From Bacillus sp. (in: firmicutes) (GTDB lineage Bacteria; Bacillota; Bacilli; Bacillales; Salisediminibacteriaceae), in NCBI GenBank assembly GCA_021208645.1, contig JAJOJL010000100.1, forward strand, positions 1 through 37,599: a stretch of 37,599 bases of DNA, in the 5' to 3' direction. The notes under the pieces were generated by a model. It was not told the origin of the DNA. It saw nothing but the letters and a program-made list of their open reading frames with translations, and ran no database searches. Made by a program: the position numbers and the translations under genes. Positions 3,292 to 36,514 of the stretch are shown one piece after another; the first letter of the stretch is position 1; each line of letters begins with the position of its first letter.

Positions 3292-5028
3292 CTACTTTTC
3301 TTCATGAAGCCACGGGATCAAGGCTGTCTTTTCAGCTAGTTCTGTCTTCACCTTTTTAATCCATTCCTGCTCTGCTATTGCCTTTCCTTTCAGAACCGGG
3401 GCTTTTGTACCTGTTGCGTATAAGCTTTGGTTAATCACCCACCAGCTTGGCGTGATTGCTGCACGCTTTAAATCCTCTTGTAATCTGGCCGCCTCTAATA
3501 CAGGCGTTGCTTCTGCAAGAGTGACGATCAGTACAGCCGTTTCCTGTGGGTTTCGAATCATGGGCAATAGATTTTTCGCACTTTCAGGAACAACACCTGT
3601 GGACCGTTCTATTTCTTTACTATAAGACTGAGAGGCATCTAGTAATAATAACGTGTGTCCTGTTGGTGCCGTATCAATGACAACCACTTCTTCCTCCGTT
3701 TTTGCCACCACTTCTGCAAATGCCTGGAAGACAGCAATCTCTTCGGTACATGGAGATTCTAAATCCTCTTTTAAGTAAGCAAGTCCTTCTTCATCGAGAT
3801 CCTTCTCGGACTCTGCCAGTACCTTTCCTTTGTACTTCTCTACTTCTACCTTCGGATCAATCCTACTAATCGTTAAATTCTCATTTTCTATGGATTGTTG
3901 GAATTGATACTCTAAATGGGCAGCAGGGTCTGTTGTCGTTAAATGAACGGGATGCCCTTTTTCAACAAGCCCTACAGCAACAGTAGAAGCCACCGTAGTT
4001 TTTCCAACCCCACCTTTCCCCATTGTAAAAATAAGTTTCTTCTGACTAACAGAGAGATCATTTATCACATCAGTTAACTGTGGAAGCCTCATCGGTTCCT
4101 GTTCACCACTAAACTCCATTACGTCCCCTTCTTGATAGTCTTTAAATAGATGGCGTAAATTATTTACACCAGTTAACGAAAAGGGAACGTACGGCAGAGA
4201 AAAAGTGGTAACCTCCATTAAGTGAGTAGGTAACTCCTTTAACGCTAGCTGTTGCCTTTCATAAAAGGCCGTTGCCACTTCGTCGTCCTCCTGCTGGCTT
4301 TGAAGGAGACCGTTAATAATGAGCATTTGCTGACTTATGCCCATTTCCTTTAATTCCAACGAAGCACGCTCCGCCTCCTTTAAGGAAGAACCATCAGGCC
4401 TTGCCACAAGAATTAAGGTAGTTTTCCTTTCATCGGAAAGGACAGCAACGGCATTTTCATACAAATCCTTCTTTTCCCCTAACCCAGATAAAGGTCCTAA
4501 GCAAGAAGCCCCGTGGGTACTTTCTTCCAAAAACCCGCTCCACGCTGTGGGAAGTTGCAGAAGGCGCAATGTGTGTCCTGTAGGAGCTGTATCAAAGATG
4601 ATGTAATCATACTCCTGAACGATCTCATGATCAGTTATAAACCCTGTGAATTCATCAAAAGCAGCGATCTCTACCGTACAAGCACCGGATAATTGTTCTT
4701 CCATCGAAGCAATGACTGCTTCTGGAAGCTTATTGCGGTACGGACCTATTACTTTTTCCCGATAGGTCTTTGCTGCGTTTTCTGGGTCAATATTACTGAC
4801 ATATAAGTTGGCCACTGTTGGAATTGCCTTCGGTGTACTCGTTAATTCCATTGCAAAAACATCTTGTAAATTAGAGGCAGGATCTGTGCTAATCAACAAA
4901 ACTTTTTTTCCTCTGTCAGCTAAAGCGACCGCTGCTGCACAGGCCGTCGATGTTTTTCCTACCCCGCCTTTTCCCGTCAAAAAAACAAATTGTGTCTTCA
5001 ACTCATTAGGATTAAAAATTGGATACAT
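3292..5028 (-). CDS. arsA: ArsA, arsenical pump-driving ATPase
   Basis: A 578-residue tandem ATPase. Each half has a deviant P-loop GKGGVGKT (residues 19-26 and 337-344) and a DTAPTGHT signal-transduction motif (from residues 146 and about 450). Cys117, Cys176 and Cys427 correspond to the three cysteines that bind As(III)/Sb(III) in ArsA of plasmid R773, so allosteric metalloid activation should be intact. ArsA normally powers the ArsB permease at the membrane and receives metalloid from ArsD. The start ATG has only a weak AAAGGAAAG about 13 bases upstream, and the gene follows arsD by 22 bases, so translational coupling is likely. No arsB or acr3 is in the window. Confidence 0.95.
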   Translation of the reverse strand: MYPIFNPNELKTQFVFLTGKGGVGKTSTACAAAVALADRGKKVLLISTDPASNLQDVFAMELTSTPKAIPTVANLYVSNIDPENAAKTYREKVIGPYRNKLPEAVIASMEEQLSGACTVEIAAFDEFTGFITDHEIVQEYDYIIFDTAPTGHTLRLLQLPTAWSGFLEESTHGASCLGPLSGLGEKKDLYENAVAVLSDERKTTLILVARPDGSSLKEAERASLELKEMGISQQMLIINGLLQSQQEDDEVATAFYERQQLALKELPTHLMEVTTFSLPYVPFSLTGVNNLRHLFKDYQEGDVMEFSGEQEPMRLPQLTDVINDLSVSQKKLIFTMGKGGVGKTTVASTVAVGLVEKGHPVHLTTTDPAAHLEYQFQQSIENENLTISRIDPKVEVEKYKGKVLAESEKDLDEEGLAYLKEDLESPCTEEIAVFQAFAEVVAKTEEEVVVIDTAPTGHTLLLLDASQSYSKEIERSTGVVPESAKNLLPMIRNPQETAVLIVTLAEATPVLEAARLQEDLKRAAITPSWWVINQSLYATGTKAPVLKGKAIAEQEWIKKVKTELAEKTALIPWLHEEK

Positions 5029-5050
5029 GGGAACACCATCTTTCCTTTTT

Positions 5051-5413
5051 TTACGATTGTTTTACATTAATGGATAATTTCGCTTTTGGCTTCTTCGATA
5101 ATTCTTCCAACTTTACTTCAAACCATGCTGCAAATTCTTCATTGGTCGGATAGGCCCCTACTTTTTCCACTTTACCATCCACCATTACCACCGGTAGAGC
5201 ATCAGGGCCCTTTTCCGTTAATAGCCGTTGAATCTCCTGATTATCTGCAAATCTATCTGGATCATTTGTTAGTTGATAGCGAGTAATGGGAAATCCTTTT
5301 TTCTCTAAAACAAAAATAGCAGCTGCCACTCTTGTTAATTCAGGATCCACACTTGGACCACACACACCTGTAGAACAACACATTGCTGGGTCAAAAATTT
5401 CTACCTTTTTCAT
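5051..5413 (-). CDS. arsD: ArsD, arsenic metallochaperone
   Basis: A 120-residue ArsD, the same length as the R773 protein. It has a thioredoxin-like fold and the metalloid site CCSTGVC (Cys12, Cys13 and Cys18). ArsD hands As(III)/Sb(III) to ArsA and can act as a weak repressor. I chose the ATG at 5413, which begins MKKVEIF, because GGAGGT lies seven bases upstream; a longer frame from a TTG at 5428 would contain that ribosome site. A dispersed repeat ends only about 29 bases upstream of the start, so the transcript probably runs through it or starts in it. No arsR is visible next to it. Confidence 0.95.
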   Translation of the reverse strand: MKKVEIFDPAMCCSTGVCGPSVDPELTRVAAAIFVLEKKGFPITRYQLTNDPDRFADNQEIQRLLTEKGPDALPVVMVDGKVEKVGAYPTNEEFAAWFEVKLEELSKKPKAKLSINVKQS

Positions 5414-5441
5414 GTAGATAACCTCCAATATTTTATTAAAT

Positions 5442-10031: not shown

Positions 10032-10947
10032 CACGCCCATGCACCAGTTCACGAATTTCAACCCCTTCGTTTAATACTGGTGCCTTGCCCCTTGAAATAA
10101 GGCTACTTGAAAATTTTCACATTTTGTCTCGTAAAAATTTATATTTTTTTTCCATTCAACCGTTGTATCCTTCATCCCCTGTAGCACATATACAGGGATG
10201 GGCATTTTGGGACAATCTATAAATTCACTTTGCCAATGCTCTAAAGCACGAATCCATTTCGCTTTTAACACCTTTACTTGCAAGGGATCTTGTTTAACAA
10301 AGTGACGATACATATAGTCGTTGGAATTTCGTTTAAATGCCCGTTGTTTTTTGCGGAAAAACTTCCCAGAAACGAGCAAGAAAAGTACGAAAAAGTGTCC
10401 ACTTAAAGGGGTGATAAAGGGGAGCAACGAGGAGCAGTCCCTTCAGCTGAATTTTCTTTTCGGAACAGGCATGAAATAATAACGCCGCTCCTGTACTGTG
10501 TCCAAGCCCTACTACATCCCCTTCCCCCATTACCTTTTTAACGGACTCAAACCCATTGATAATAGCGTCAAGGTAATCATCAAAACTGGAGATCATCCCC
10601 TTTTCCCCTTCTGAAAATCCATGACCTGGTAAATCAATTACGGCTACTTGAAAGTTTTCTTGAAGGAGCAAATTGATCGTTCTGTTTAAGCCAGTACTAT
10701 GGTCTAAATAGCCATGGATTAAATAAACGGTACCTTTTGACTTTTCTTTTAGAAAAAATTGTTGAAATTGTTTCTTCCCTTTTACCGTTACAAAACCACA
10801 GCGGTATTCATCCATTTGATCGCAATCAATGCCATAATAAGATAAATAATTTTGCAGCCCTTCATGTCTATAATGGGGATTTGACTCATCTATTGTTAAA
10901 TTTGCTGTTTTAATTTGAGATACCCATTCTATTTGTCCTGGATTCAT
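9982..10947 (-). pseudogene. Alpha/beta hydrolase (monoacylglycerol lipase-like), two frameshifts
   Basis: Joined from three frames this is a serine hydrolase of about 320 residues. The first part has the oxyanion-hole region LIHGYLDHS and the nucleophile elbow GHSTG. The frame shifts at a six-base run (10347-10352; one base too many), after which KKQRAFKRNS onward carries the acid residue in GMKDTTV and the catalytic His in GARH. A second shift near 10076 (one base missing) restores VLNEGVEIRELVHGR to a stop at 9982, inside the 3' end of the convergent MFS gene. Family members cleave lysophospholipids or monoacylglycerols. Either decayed or an assembly problem; as read, the His-proximal C-terminus is lost. 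Confidence 0.8.
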
Positions 10948-24822: not shown

Positions 24823-26098
24823 ATGGGGATAAACATGTTTGCACAACTATTTTTACAAATTACATTTATTGTCCTGCCCATATTAATCTACTATTCTTTG
24901 TTAAGAAATAACGCTGCCCTAAAGAAATATAAAATGGTGTTAACTGGATTGCTGTGTGGCCTCTCCATCTTATTATGTATGTCTTTTCCCATTTCATTCA
25001 CAACTGGTAATATGATGGATTTAAGAAGTATCCCTTGGGTGATTGCTTTTTTGTACGGTAGTTTTCCCCTTGGAATTTTATTAACTATTTTCATGTTTGT
25101 TTACCGGTTTTTTATTGGTGGCATGGGAATGTATTGTTGTGTTTATCGCCTATTCAATCTCCACCATTGGGTTATACTTGTTCTTTCATAACTATTTACA
25201 TTTCTCTTTAACAAAAAAAATGAAGGCAAGTCTTATCTTTGTTTTCTTTAATGCCGTCCTTATTGTAGTTTGCATACAAACTATTTTCCGTTTTTCTTTT
25301 CCAGATGTTGGTTTCTTTTATGCTTTTTTCATCCTAATGCATTTAGTAATGGCTTGGATTGCTATTTATTTAATAGAGACCTTTCGAGAAAATGAAAGAC
25401 TACAACTAGAAGTTCAAAAAGCCGAGAAGTTACATGTTGTGGGACAAATGGCCGCCAGCGTCGCCCATGAAATTAGAAACCCCATGACCGTTGTACTTGG
25501 ATTTATTCAACTACTTCATAAGGACCCTGACACTACAGAAAAACATAAGAAACACTTTAAAATTATGGAGATAGAAATGGAACGCGCTGAGTCCATTATT
25601 AAAGACTATCTTTCCTTAGCAAAGCCACAATCGGAAACCCTGGAAAAAATAGATGTGGCAGAGCAGTTGGATACTATTAAGCAAACCCTTTCTCATTATT
25701 CCGCCTTAAATGGAGTGACGATGAAATATGAGACACATCTAAATGAGGACTTTCACGTATACGGATCCAAGGAAAAGCTTCAACAAGTATTAGTGAACAT
25801 CATTAAGAATGCCATTGAAGTTTCCCACAAAGGAGACTCTGTTTACGTAAAATTATTAAAAGAAAATGGAATGATTACCATCTCCATTAAGGATAATGGT
25901 CCAGGAATGACATCTGAGCAACTAGCAAAACTAGGAACCCCTTTTTATTCTACAAAGGATAAAGGAACTGGATTAGGGTTATCGGTCTGTTACAGTATTA
26001 TTTATAGTATGAATGGTACGATCGATGTTCAAAGTCATGTTAACAAAGGCTCCACCTTCAAAATAAGACTACCTATTATAAATGAAAAGGTTATCTAG
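24823..26098 (+). pseudogene. Sensor histidine kinase with LytS-like 5TM domain, frameshifted
   Basis: About 425 residues when joined. The N-terminus is a multi-helix 5TMR_LYT-type sensor (RSIPWVIAFLYGSFPLGILL, then YRFFIGGMGMY). One extra base near 25134 breaks the frame; restoring it gives GGMGMYVVFIAYSIST. A HisKA domain follows with the H-box VAHEIRNPMTVV, then N-box NIIKNAIEVS, G1 DNGPGM and G2 GTGLGLS. This resembles sporulation-type kinases that feed a phosphorelay, and no response regulator is adjacent. The start could be ATG 24823 or 24835. As read, the kinase part alone could start at 25097 and keep several helices. Confidence 0.83.
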
Positions 26099-29897: not shown

Positions 29898-31023
29898 TTA
29901 TTGCGTCGGAAGCCAATGGGATTTCCATACCCCTTCCTCAAAGGTTAATCGAAAAATTCCTGGAAAATCAAGATTATCTTTCATGACAAGTCTAACAAAA
30001 CCATCATCCGTCTCTTCATCGAAATAAACTTGATACATGGCAAGGACTTCATTTTCCATTGTATCTGCAAAAGTCTTTGAACTACTTTCCTTCATTTCCT
30101 GCAGATACTGCTCCTTATCTAGGAAGGTGTATTTCTCTTCGTCCAAGATGTGTAACTCATATAAGGTTTCATAATCCTCTAATTGACTCGTATAGGCGTA
30201 TAACATGACAAACTCCTCTGCTGTTAAACCGATTAAGGCATCGTCAGAGTAGTTCTCGGCAAACCGTTCATAAACCTCCATGATTTTTTCCGTTACTTGG
30301 AAAACTGGTTCGTCATGCTGTGCTTGAATGGTATCATAAATTTCAAAATGCTCCATTTGGTTACTAATGACATACCAACCTGCTTTTTCTTCTCCGTCCA
30401 AATCTTTATAGAAAAGTAACACGGAAACTTCCGGTTCTCCTCGGCTAAATTGTACATCCACTACCTTTAAGGATTCCTTCATGATATTTTTTTTCATAAA
30501 ACAGGACAAGTTCGTTTATCTGTTCTTCACCCTTAAAGTCAGTGAAGCTAAGAACGTCAATAGCTTGTTGATCATTAGCGAAAACAGCTTGGAGATAGTC
30601 AACAAAAGTTTGGGCCGCTTCATCCCACACATCCTTATCAAGTAGATCCTGATACATCTCTTCTAAAACCAGCATCTTATTTTCAATTGGTTCTTCCTCA
30701 CCAGGAGGAACTACCGTCTCATCAGTAACCTCGTCTGATATATCTACAATCGGTGTTTCACTTCCTCCTCCAGATCCTAAGAACTGATTCATGGAATTTT
30801 TCAAAGGCTCCAATCCAGAAGAGACTAATAAAATGATGATGAACACAGAAGCTAATGATACTCCGGCAATTTTCAGGACGGGATAAAAGGATTGTTTTCT
30901 ATCCATGATTTGCGCCTTCTCTCTCAGATTAGTTTTCAAGCGGTTTTTAATCTCCGCACGAGGTTCCCGTTCAGGATGCTGCCGCAACTGGTTCAGCAAG
31001 CGATCATTGTGATTTTCTATCAT
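29898..31023 (-). pseudogene. Anti-sigma factor-like membrane protein for the second ECF sigma, frameshifted in an A8 run
   Basis: About 374 residues when joined. The cytoplasmic N-terminus is MIENHNDRLLNQLRQHPERE. One transmembrane helix (IAGVSLASVFIIILLVSSGL) leads to a Gly/acidic linker and a large extracytoplasmic part. At eight A's (T8 at 30487-30494) the frame breaks; with seven it reads FYEKNIMKESLKVVDVQF and continues to 29898 with a second globular segment. The start is ATG 31023, six bases after GGAGGGG; it overlaps the sigma gene by 20 bases. Anti-sigma function is inferred from position and topology. As read, the membrane and cytoplasmic parts would still be made without the distal domain. 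Confidence 0.75.
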
Positions 31024-31555
31024 ATAAAACCCCTCCTTTTTCATCTGGAGTTAACGCGTCATGGAGTTCTTTTATAGCTCGATGATAGTCCACACGAACC
31101 TTTGATTCCTTACAGTTCAAGATTTCAGCCGTTTCCTTTATGCTGAGCTCTTTAATTCCCTTTAAAATAATCACATTTCGATAGGCCGGTCTTAGTGATG
31201 TCAGGGCTTCTGTCACTTCCCGCCACTCGTCCTTTATTTGAAATGCCTTCTCCGGGAGACCATCCTTAGCAATCTCTTTTGATAAAAACACGTCCGGAAT
31301 AAATTGAACGATTTTTTTCCTCCGATAATGGTCAATGGCTGTATTCTTGGCAATGGAAAGAATCCATGTTTTCACCTTTGATTGCCTGTTAAAACTAGGT
31401 AATGCCTTAAGAACTTTCATGAACACTTCCTGCGTAAGGTCCTCCGCATCACTTCGGTTATTCGTAAAATAAAGACAAAATTGATAGACGTCCCCATAAT
31501 ACGTTTCACACAGGGAATCTATTTCATCCACTAAATTCCAGTCATCCTCTGCCAC
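31004..31555 (-). CDS. ECF RNA polymerase sigma factor, second copy
   Basis: 183 residues. Region 2 runs from DVYQFCLYFTNNRSDAEDLT through QEVFMKVLKAL and KTWILSIAKNTAIDHYRRKK. Region 4 runs from LTSLRPAYRNVIILKGIKE through LSIKETAEILNCKESKVRVD. The start is GTG at 31555, five bases after GAGGAGGGG. A TGAAAC-N16-CGAC promoter upstream suggests autoregulation. The two sigmas in this window are only distantly similar to each other and have different predicted -10 elements. Confidence 0.92.
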   Translation of the reverse strand: MAEDDWNLVDEIDSLCETYYGDVYQFCLYFTNNRSDAEDLTQEVFMKVLKALPSFNRQSKVKTWILSIAKNTAIDHYRRKKIVQFIPDVFLSKEIAKDGLPEKAFQIKDEWREVTEALTSLRPAYRNVIILKGIKELSIKETAEILNCKESKVRVDYHRAIKELHDALTPDEKGGVLYDRKSQ

Positions 31556-33290: not shown

Positions 33291-34244
33291 TTAGGAATCA
33301 AACATGGGTAAATAGTACCCGTACCCATTCTCCATAAGCTCCCTTGCAGGAATAAACCGTAATGCTGCAGAATTAATACAATACCTCAACCCACCAACTT
33401 CACGAGGACCATCAGGAAACACATGCCCTAAATGGGAATCTGCTAGCTGGCTCCTCACCTCAGTCCTAACACTATCATGAGAGACGTCCATCTTTTCCTT
33501 TACAAAGTTTTTATCTATTGGCTTCGTAAAACTTGGCCACCCGCAGCCAGCATCATATTTGTCCCGAGAACTAAACAAAGGCTCACCAGAGACAACATCG
33601 ACATAAATCCCTTCCTCCTCATGATCCCATAATTCATTTTTATAAGGTGGTTCCGTCCCACCTAATTGCGTTACATTCAATGCCATTGGTTCTAGCTGCT
33701 TTTTCAATTCCTCTTCCACCCAAACATTCCGTAAAATTTCATCTTTTCCTGACTTCCAACGCTGCAGTTTATATCTAAACTCATATTCTTTATGAAAGCG
33801 TTGATGAAATTGTTTTGCAGGGAAAAAGACTTTAAAGGGAAGTATCTCCGTGACGATGGGGGTAGAAAAACGCCCACTATTACCCAAAGCTTGTTTCGAC
33901 TGCTCTGCTTGTCTTTTCTGGGAAGAGTCATGAAAAAAGATGGCTGTCTTAAAACATGGCCCACTGTCGTTGAATTGTCCCTCATTATCAGTTGGGTCAA
34001 TTTGTCGCCAATAGATATTTAGGAGGTCATCGTAGGAAATCAGCGCCGGTCGATAACTAACCTGGACTGCCATGACACAATTGGCCACTCCAGACAGAAC
34101 CTCTGTATGGGTAGGAGGTTCATCCAATTCTCCTGTGTAACCTGAAACAATATCCACTACGCCAGGTTTTTCAAAGGGCTGGACGAGATGCCAGAAATGT
34201 CCTCCAGCAAAGGTTGCTGTTTGCAGTTCTATACGCTTGTCCAT
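33291..34244 (-). CDS. msrB: MsrA-MsrB fusion with a degenerate MsrA domain
   Basis: 317 residues. The MsrB half (about 165-317) is canonical: [26 protein letters not shown] and the catalytic Cys in [12 protein letters not shown]. It reduces methionine-R-sulfoxide. The MsrA half keeps the fold signature ([35 protein letters not shown]) but its active site reads AGGHFWH where active enzymes have GGCFW: the nucleophilic Cys is a CAT-coded His, two base changes away from a Cys codon. The usual GHAEAVQV is NCVMAVQV, so the catalytic Glu is also lost. The MsrA half is probably inactive. It starts 18 bases after the upstream msrA, with GGAGGGGGG seven bases before the ATG. Confidence 0.9.
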
Positions 34245-34262: not shown

Positions 34263-34922
34263 TTACCAGCGAATTTTATCGATGGTTGTTATCAATCGAT
34301 TTTTCCCCTCCTCATCCATTTCCCATTGCTGAATTTCTTCTTTGATCGTAGATAAGGAACCATAACCTTTCACAAACCCGTTTAACCGTGCGGCTAATGT
34401 AGAGTTAACAAAAGAGTCCTCATCCCCATAAAGCTCCATGAGATTTGCTACTGCATCAGGATACCGCTTCAAATAGTATTTTTGATGATAATCCTCTGCC
34501 CTGTAAAACTCTTTATAAGGAGCTATTTCCGTACCGAACGCTTCGCCCCACTCCTCTTCTAGCTTATCCTTCACCTCATAGATCACCTGCTTCTGTTCGT
34601 CGCTATGGTATAGCAACAAGGAGATATATTGTCTCCCTTTATAGGCCCCTCGATTGGAGTTATGATTTCTCCAGAATAATTCCAGGAGTTCCTCTAAAGA
34701 AATTATGTTTTGTAAAAAATCGATTTGAAGGGTCTCTGTATGGTCGCCCATCTGCCGGTAAGTAGGCTTGTTTGTTGTTCCCCCTCCATAACCAACACGG
34801 GTTCGAACGAGGCCACGTAAATGCCCAAACTGAGCATCTGGTCCCCAAAATCAGCCCATGCCGAACGTGATAGTCTCGTACGTCTCAAAGTACGGTTCTA
34901 GGATTTGCTTCTGTCCTTTCAT
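34263..34922 (-). CDS. msrA: Peptide-methionine (S)-S-oxide reductase MsrA, predicted selenoprotein (TGA at active site)
   Basis: 219 residues when the in-frame TGA at 34853-34851 is read as selenocysteine (residue 24). It starts at ATG 34922 with AGGAAAGG upstream. The frame then runs without any other stop through MKGQKQILEPYF, GMG-[TGA]-FWGPDAQFG, VRTRVGYGGGTTNKPTYRQM and GDHTETLQIDF to FWRNHNSNRGAYKGRQYISL and EFYRAEDYHQKYYLKRYP. TGA replaces exactly the nucleophilic Cys of the GMGCFWGP motif. No Cys is present elsewhere, so there is no resolving cysteine. A SECIS-like hairpin follows the TGA. Automatic calling would start at 34751 and lose the active site. The alternatives are a nonsense mutation or a base error. 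Confidence 0.8.
34819..34853 (-). promoter_or_regulatory. Candidate bacterial SECIS element with its UGA codon
   Basis: After the TGA (34853-34851) come 11 bases, then AGAUGCUC and GGGCAUUU (34839-34819), forming an 8-bp stem with two G-U pairs around an AGUUU loop. The 11-base spacing equals that between UGA and the upper stem in E. coli fdhF, and a G lies in the first two loop positions, as SelB requires. Identified by eye; folding energy not computed. Confidence 0.68.
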
Positions 34923-34973
34923 ATAATCAACCTTTCCTCTAAGTCTGTTTTATGCTTCAATAGCTGTAAAGTT

Positions 34974-35507: not shown

Positions 35508-35533
35508 AAAGGCATGGGAAGCCCATGCCTTTA
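35508..35533. terminator. Bidirectional terminator
   Basis: AAAGGCATGGG pairs with CCCATGCCTTT around a short loop between two convergent lipoprotein genes; the right arm touches the stop codon of the second. Confidence 0.9.
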
Positions 35534-36514
35534 TTCCATTTCTATCAATTCATTCGATACATCATCATAGTGGTAAACAGTTGTGACTTCATCGGGACGC
35601 CAATCAATAAGGTACAATGTGTCATTAATGACGTTTACCCAACTCCATCGTTCGTCCCCCGCGTATAAAACCCTTTGCGCGCTTCCGTCGCCTTCCACTT
35701 TCACTATCTCCCCAGTCTCTTCCGATGTTAAAATTAGTTTCCCGTCTTCAGGCAAATAGTTATGTATCCTCCCTTTCCCTAATGCTTGTACATTGGTCCC
35801 ATTCAACTTCATTCGGTATATATTATCATCTTGATTGTCCATATCATGAAGAGGCTAAAATTCTCATCACGATTTTCGAAATAAATCCATTCACCCTCCA
35901 CAATGAAACTAGTTGTTGAGATGTTTATATCTTTGTCCGTCATTATCTGTGTTTTTTCTTTTCCTGCCGAATTCATTCTGAACACTGCACCATCTGCAGG
36001 AATGGCATAATAAATCCAGCCATCTGCCCATTGCATGTGGTTAATCATTCCTTCCACCAGCTGAACTTTCCCTTCCCCATCTAAACTTGCTCGAAAAATC
36101 CCGCTGTCCTTCTCATTATTGGAAGAATAAAAGATGGAATCATTCACAATCATATAGTCGGAAATATAAGTATCTATGATTTGTTCCCGAACCCCGTCAT
36201 CTTCTTTAAGAAACCGAAACAAACCGGTCTCTTCACCGAAGGCCGCAAAATATAAATAATCCCCATGGGACTGAATGCCACGACCGTAGGTGTTTTCATA
36301 TGTTTTTTTTTGTCACACCGTCGGTACGTGAAATATTACCGTTTTCCGTCCCATCATGGTAGTAGAACCAGCCTTCTTCCTCTAGAACAAAACCAAACTG
36401 TGCAGCGTTTAGTGGATTGCTTCCTAATTTATAAGGTGGCTCAATTTTTTCTAAACTTCCACAAGCGCTAAGGGCAAACCAAAATGAAAAGAAAGCCAAC
36501 ATTTTTTTCCCCAT
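35531..36514 (-). pseudogene. Beta-propeller-like (DUF5050-type) lipoprotein, two frameshifts
   Basis: About 327 residues when joined. The signal peptide MGKKMLAFFSFWFALSAC ends in a lipobox. The mature part is a series of repeats with the pattern WFYYHDGTENGNISRTD, YLYFAAFGEETGLFRF, SIFYSSNNEKDSGIFR, WIYYAIPADGAVFRM, WIYFENRDEN and DNIYRMKLNG, typical of DUF5050/TolB-like propellers. The frame breaks at a nine-base run (36303-36311; eight would keep it open, reading TKKTYENTYGRG) and near 35850 (one base missing). Probably a surface-exposed binding or scaffold protein; ligand unknown. Confidence 0.78.

Follow-up and report, generated by a model that had tools for sequence, protein, structure and literature searches.

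The msrA gene of the window (the whole 37,599-nucleotide stretch of Bacillus sp. draft-genome DNA analysed here) very probably encodes a selenoprotein, with selenocysteine (Sec) inserted at an in-frame UGA, codon 24, as judged from its sequence and that of its relatives. It is followed by an msrAB fusion in which the catalytic cysteine of the MsrA half is missing (Table 1). The sequence-only reading had already proposed the use of Sec, and the proposal is supported by the alternation of TGA with cysteine codons among relatives, Sec machinery in 15 of 15 TGA genomes, a SECIS-like hairpin, and three TGA-interrupted formate dehydrogenase genes in the same genome.

Table 1. Features of the msrA–msrAB region (window coordinates).
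Feature	Coordinates	Strand	Basis or detail
msrA, 1-Cys selenoprotein type; catalytic and C-terminal helical domains	34263..34922	minus	219 codons plus stop
In-frame TGA, codon 24; predicted to be read as selenocysteine, the catalytic nucleophile	34851..34853	minus	codon alignment with relatives
Probable ribosome-binding site AGGAAAGG, 8 nt 5′ of the ATG at 34922	34931..34938	minus	read from sequence
SECIS-like hairpin, from 12 nt past the TGA, GUU in loop	34820..34838	minus	6/6 core pairs (G-U allowed)
msrAB fusion, next gene; MsrA half without catalytic Cys, MsrB half keeps Cys 234 and 289	33291..34244	minus	ORF, profile matches, alignment
msrAB codons 16–19: His-Phe-Trp-His (Cys-Phe-Trp-Cys in most intact relatives)	34188..34199	minus	alignment

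The msrA frame is interrupted only once, by the TGA within GMG-TGA-FWGP, and its coordinates and the position of the TGA are as first described from the sequence, with a probable ribosome-binding site ahead of the ATG. The predicted truncation by standard annotation is also seen, with the table-11 ORF listing beginning at 34751 and giving 162 amino acids that lack the active site. The 219-amino-acid read-through protein matches Pfam PMSR (2.4e-40, residues 17–153) and contains the MsrA catalytic domain with its G-[CU]-F-W-G motif; the match to MsrA_helical (PF20939) falls exactly at the gathering cut-off of 23.7 bits. As had been claimed, it has no other cysteine, and the resolving cysteine is absent from the read-through translation. 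The closest solved structures are chains of CoMsrA, the MsrA of Clostridium (Alkaliphilus) oremlandii (4lwj, 4u66 and others; E 3e-55), which match across both domains, the alignment to 4lwj reaching residue 218.

Alignment of homologues, advised in the sequence-only reading, reveals alternation at position 24: among 79 distinct loci found in genome_contigs with the window MsrA (from the best 80 of 411), the codon is TGA in 15 and a cysteine codon in 64 (TGC 36, TGT 28). Carriers of TGA include Evansella vedderi and E. clarkii, Litchfieldia, Sediminibacillus (two copies), Halalkalibacter, Salipaludibacillus, Aquibacillus, Salirhabdus, Texcoconibacillus, Alkalihalobacillus deserti and Ammoniphilus; the two TGA copies of Sediminibacillus massiliensis are in tandem (L015, 4001–4612 and 5295–5906) and are equally similar. 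Among 40 GTDB relatives, a set partly overlapping the first (E. vedderi and E. clarkii, with a third genome, seem common to both), TGA occupies codon 24 in 20 of the 39 genomes other than the window's own. When that genome is counted, 21 have a TGA msrA of the CoMsrA type, one has a Cys form (G071), one has a decayed gene with both TGA and TAA (G067) and 17 have only other MsrAs. The two stops of G067 point to possible decay, and a second in-frame TGA in the msrA of G051 could reflect either decay or a second Sec. An order-wide sample of 397 genomes contains 68 with an MsrA match at E <= 1e-28; a TGA is present in 49 of these, counted by matched frame rather than by TGA position and including three with more than one stop, and the other 19 have no stop, some of them probably being ordinary MsrAs. 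The same TGA codon is present in many relatives and is therefore more than chance or base error. The earlier statement that selenoproteins are rarely described in this group fits a limited literature search, although the TGA gene itself turns up repeatedly across the order. A quick MsrA tree (98 rows; 33 Sec, 65 Cys), which gives no direction of Sec/Cys change, needs two changes of the Sec/Cys label; one of these is Alkalibacterium (Cys), placed among Sec rows with weak support, and the starred branches force only one.

The hairpin that follows the TGA has a loop and spacing that we take to suit a bacterial SECIS element, and was compared in 34 different Sec sequences (among them those of the decayed G067 and of G051, which has two TGAs) and in 65 Cys sequences. 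Its stem spans +15 to +33, counted from the T of the TGA, and is nearly fully paired in the Sec genes. With G-U pairs included, the six-pair core has 6 pairs in 21/34 Sec genes, 5 in 12/34 and 4 in 1/34, whereas 60/65 Cys genes have three or fewer and 5/65 have 4 or 5; with Watson-Crick pairs alone, 30/34 Sec genes have 5. The weakest core pair, 19–29, is present in 23/34 Sec genes. Mean pairing in the Sec set is 5.59 versus 3.72 under random synonymous recoding (0/2000 draws as high), and the hairpin is therefore maintained beyond protein constraint. Neither the Cys set as a whole (1.97 versus 2.17) nor the 19 Cys genes that share the DAR/DAQ peptide (2.37 versus 2.15; 303/2000 as high) shows an excess. 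For the window gene, 97/5000 synonymous draws match its 6/6 pairs. Over a 42-base stretch the folding energies of Sec and Cys genes are not different (p 0.19), while those of shorter stretches are, and only some of the Sec genes show the hairpin in single-sequence minimum-energy folds of 57 bases. The conserved pairing directly 3′ of the UGA is what would be expected of a SECIS-type hairpin.

Searches for the Sec machinery covered 35 of the 79 genomes (all 15 with TGA and 20 of the 64 with Cys). selA is above the cut-off in 15/15 TGA genomes and in 5/20 of the Cys genomes tested (Fisher p 5e-6, relatedness ignored), and tRNA-Sec is above the cut-off in 20/35, the identical genomes to those with selA. 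The five Cys-MsrA genomes with both selA and tRNA-Sec (G016, G017, G022, G024 and G025) are Planomicrobium/Planococcus and Indiicoccus, and presumably use Sec in other proteins. selB is above the cut-off in 30/40 GTDB relatives: it is present in 20/20 TGA-bearing genomes other than the window's, in the decayed G067, and in 9/18 without a TGA gene of the CoMsrA type. It is above the cut-off in 8/8 same-genus genomes. In E. vedderi, the genes lie on a single contig in the order tRNA-Sec, selB, selD, selA, acnA; several of 20 selA stretches fetched have these same neighbours and several do not. The selD genes of E. vedderi and E. clarkii (L110, L111) have an in-frame TGA near the start, upstream of the selD ORF, in the context AG-TGA-GCKIG, and their products are likely selenoproteins too.

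The sequence-only reading had named absence of selA, selB, selC and selD from the genome as a refuting outcome and, taken literally, that is what this incomplete draft shows. In the assembly (3.95 Mb, 167 contigs, 76.6% complete), selA is not found at E <= 0.001, and selB, selD and tRNA-Sec do not reach the cut-off. Two sub-threshold Rfam matches to tRNA-Sec were rejected, both being called tRNA-Gly by ARAGORN. Of the sub-threshold matches to selB (n=4) and selD (n=4), the one of each inspected (L003, L007) reads by eye as infB and thiL, respectively. The apparent infB (contig C113, 673–2870, minus strand) is an essential gene but is broken into two ORFs that overlap, as indel errors of the draft would produce. 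The acnA gene, which follows selA in relatives, is located on contig C29 (1836–4547) and is 93% identical to that of E. vedderi. DNA similarity between C29 and E. vedderi extends to base 210, corresponding to 100 bases past the selA stop; full collinearity of C29 with E. vedderi would place the final few dozen selA codons within bases 1–110, and tblastn finds no selA end in these 110 bases. The start of C29 carries an 18-base repeat, with copies at 32 and 84, that TRF does not list and that is absent from the window. The assembly breaks within about 100 bases of the predicted selA end, at the edge of the expected sel cluster, which would then lie beyond the end of C29.

Three formate dehydrogenase alpha genes in the draft (on C27, C166 and C11) have matched frames broken only by a TGA, within R[T/I]-[TGA]-H-[A/S]. 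With the TGA translated as Sec they score 815, 1236 and 1220 bits, respectively, above the cut-off, and the R[T/I]-[TGA]-H position is presumably the Sec site of formate dehydrogenases. The genome also contains separate msrA and msrB genes on C32.

Elsewhere in the window there are four overlapping same-strand ORF pairs (10071–10947, 29898–31044 and 35531–36222, minus strand; 24823–26098, plus strand), each perhaps a single gene split by frameshifts arising from indel errors of the draft. An ArsA arsenical pump ATPase gene is located at 3292–5428 on the minus strand (TIGR04291, 849.6 bits), and the adjoining ORF looks ArsD-like.

The interrupted msrA could be a pseudogene or a product of sequencing error, with a Cys codon mutated or misread as TGA, and the broken frames of the draft (e.g. 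infB) and its missing Sec machinery are compatible with this. It is nonetheless highly improbable, given that TGA stands at the identical codon in both partly overlapping sets of genomes (15/79 and 20/39), that the hairpin is kept beyond what the protein demands, and that three formate dehydrogenase genes of the same genome have TGA at the Sec site; conservation of the TGA across genomes was the ground on which a chance frame, like sequencing error and a pseudogene, was rejected. Decoding of the TGA as Cys or Trp, through a suppressor tRNA or an altered code, would leave the frames open as well, but is scarcely credible when every TGA genome among the 35 tested has both selA and tRNA-Sec and when a hairpin mostly missing from Cys genes lies 3′ of the TGA.

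The gene might also be a relic, functional in relatives but decaying in an organism that recently lost its Sec machinery. Decay does occur, as the TGA and TAA of G067 indicate, the draft is without sel genes, and the first 110 bases of C29 contain no selA end. Set against this, the window hairpin retains a degree of pairing that few synonymous draws reach, the formate dehydrogenase genes are open except for their TGAs, the contig ends near the expected selA, and selB is above the cut-off in all eight same-genus genomes, so that a relic is very unlikely. Insertion of Sec at codon 24 remains the preferred reading.

In the downstream msrAB, on which the sequence-only reading is silent, the MsrA half reads GG-H-FW-H, with His16 at the position of the catalytic Cys; the MsrB half retains its two cysteines, Cys234 and Cys289. 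The following gene was inspected at 102 MsrA loci (at least three genomes are seen twice and some loci are cut by a contig end). MsrAB lies directly after a CoMsrA-type msrA in eight distinct genomes (the L025 copy is cut by the contig end), and the catalytic Cys is absent from 8/8 of these MsrABs, being replaced by His in six, Arg in one and Pro in one. In Tetzosporium (L072), MsrAB is instead upstream of MsrA and its Cys is intact. Of the 29 distinct MsrABs in a wider comparison, which left out MsrAB-like frames of about 380–405 codons, 23 came from searching the 40 relatives and six from beside MsrA loci. The MsrA-half Cys is lost in 10 (six H, three R, one P) and kept in 19. All 10 Cys-lacking genomes have a CoMsrA-type MsrA, nine with TGA and one with Cys (a Domibacillus MAG, L063), although G038 and G039 have it at a distance from the MsrAB. 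Since seven of the 19 genomes with intact MsrAB carry a CoMsrA-type gene as well, the association runs in one direction only. Five of the ten Cys-less MsrABs were found through MsrA; among the 23 MsrABs not found in that way, a CoMsrA-type gene accompanies 5/5 Cys-less and 6/18 intact proteins (Fisher p 0.014), these five Cys-less proteins all being from the window's genus and a single clade.

A careful MsrAB tree places the ten Cys-less proteins in two separate clades; its starred branches force two changes, and 0% of 200 bootstrap trees need only one. At 42 MsrA-half positions that are invariant in the 19 intact MsrABs, 28 are kept in at least 9/10 of the Cys-less proteins, so the MsrA half is maintained, but the usual Cys chemistry is impossible. 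Position 58, which we take to be the catalytic Glu, is also altered in seven of the ten. This change, and the occurrence of H, R or P in one of the two clades, disfavour the idea that His has become a conserved catalytic residue in its own right, although it may have done so in the all-His clade. Scanning for promoters and terminators around the genes gave numbers at about the shuffled level (8 versus 5.1, sd 2.4; 2 versus 2.2), so it is gene spacing that points to a putative operon.

As proposed for the window organism, a SelA/SelB/SelC/SelD system would insert Sec at UGA 24, guided by the short hairpin (SECIS) just 3′ of it, to give a methionine-S-sulfoxide reductase with selenocysteine as its only redox residue. 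The Sec would attack the sulfoxide and become a selenenic acid. Because the window protein has no resolving cysteine, an external thiol would be needed to reduce the selenenic acid, probably one that is glutaredoxin- or bacilliredoxin-like. The C-terminal helical domain may keep the active site assembled, a role reported for its C. oremlandii counterpart. Since the adjacent MsrAB has lost its MsrA nucleophile but kept its MsrB cysteines, the gene pair would cover both epimers, with S reduced by the selenoprotein and R by MsrB in a putative division of labour.

The window protein shares with CoMsrA a GUFWG-type active site, the lack of any Cys, the helical domain and a length of about 210–220 residues. 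It differs in that its host is Bacillaceae-type rather than an anaerobic clostridium, and in having as downstream neighbour an MsrAB whose MsrA half lacks its nucleophile. The C. oremlandii study reports one Sec and no Cys, a 20-fold advantage in activity over the Cys form, a helical domain that is essential, and glutaredoxin rather than thioredoxin as reductant (PMC4333827). The Cys MsrAs of Planococcus, Sporosarcina, Domibacillus, Paenibacillus and others are 48–57% identical over their length to the window MsrA but have TGC or TGT at codon 24, mostly without the hairpin (60/65), and 15/20 of their tested genomes lack selA and tRNA-Sec above the cut-off. The window msrAB has the MsrA-MsrB order and MsrB cysteines of bifunctional MsrAB (PDB 3e0m and relatives) and departs from it at the catalytic Cys, which is His here and His, Arg or Pro in relatives.

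A 2006 tabulation gives three selenoprotein families for Firmicutes/Bacillales and names MsrA once (PMC1794560), and MsrA is listed among bacterial selenoproteins (PMC9312934). The terms 'MsrA' and 'methionine sulfoxide' are absent from the main text of a survey of more than 5200 organisms (PMC5029168). Open-licence PMC literature yielded nothing that joins selenocysteine with Bacillaceae or Evansella and nothing on MsrAB with an inactive MsrA domain; an Aneurinibacillus paper there names selenocysteine and Bacillales. The kind of enzyme is thus already known, and this member, its host range and its Cys-less MsrAB partner were not found described in that literature.

These results indicate that Sec use, and Sec-MsrA especially, recurs in a group in which simple ORF prediction truncates the gene and drops its active site. 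The existence of close relatives that use either Sec, with the hairpin, or Cys, mostly lacking it, provides a natural comparison for the retention of selenium in one enzyme. We suggest tentatively, and at a little short of an even chance, that in alkaliphilic and halophilic Bacillaceae the Sec-MsrA let the MsrA half of MsrAB become a kept pseudoenzyme, at least twice independently, with the dead half serving for scaffolding, substrate binding or docking and the two genes together forming a split S/R sulfoxide reductase whose S half depends on selenium. That MsrAB has lost its MsrA nucleophile in parallel offers a case in which a shift of labour from a Cys enzyme to a Sec enzyme can be tested.
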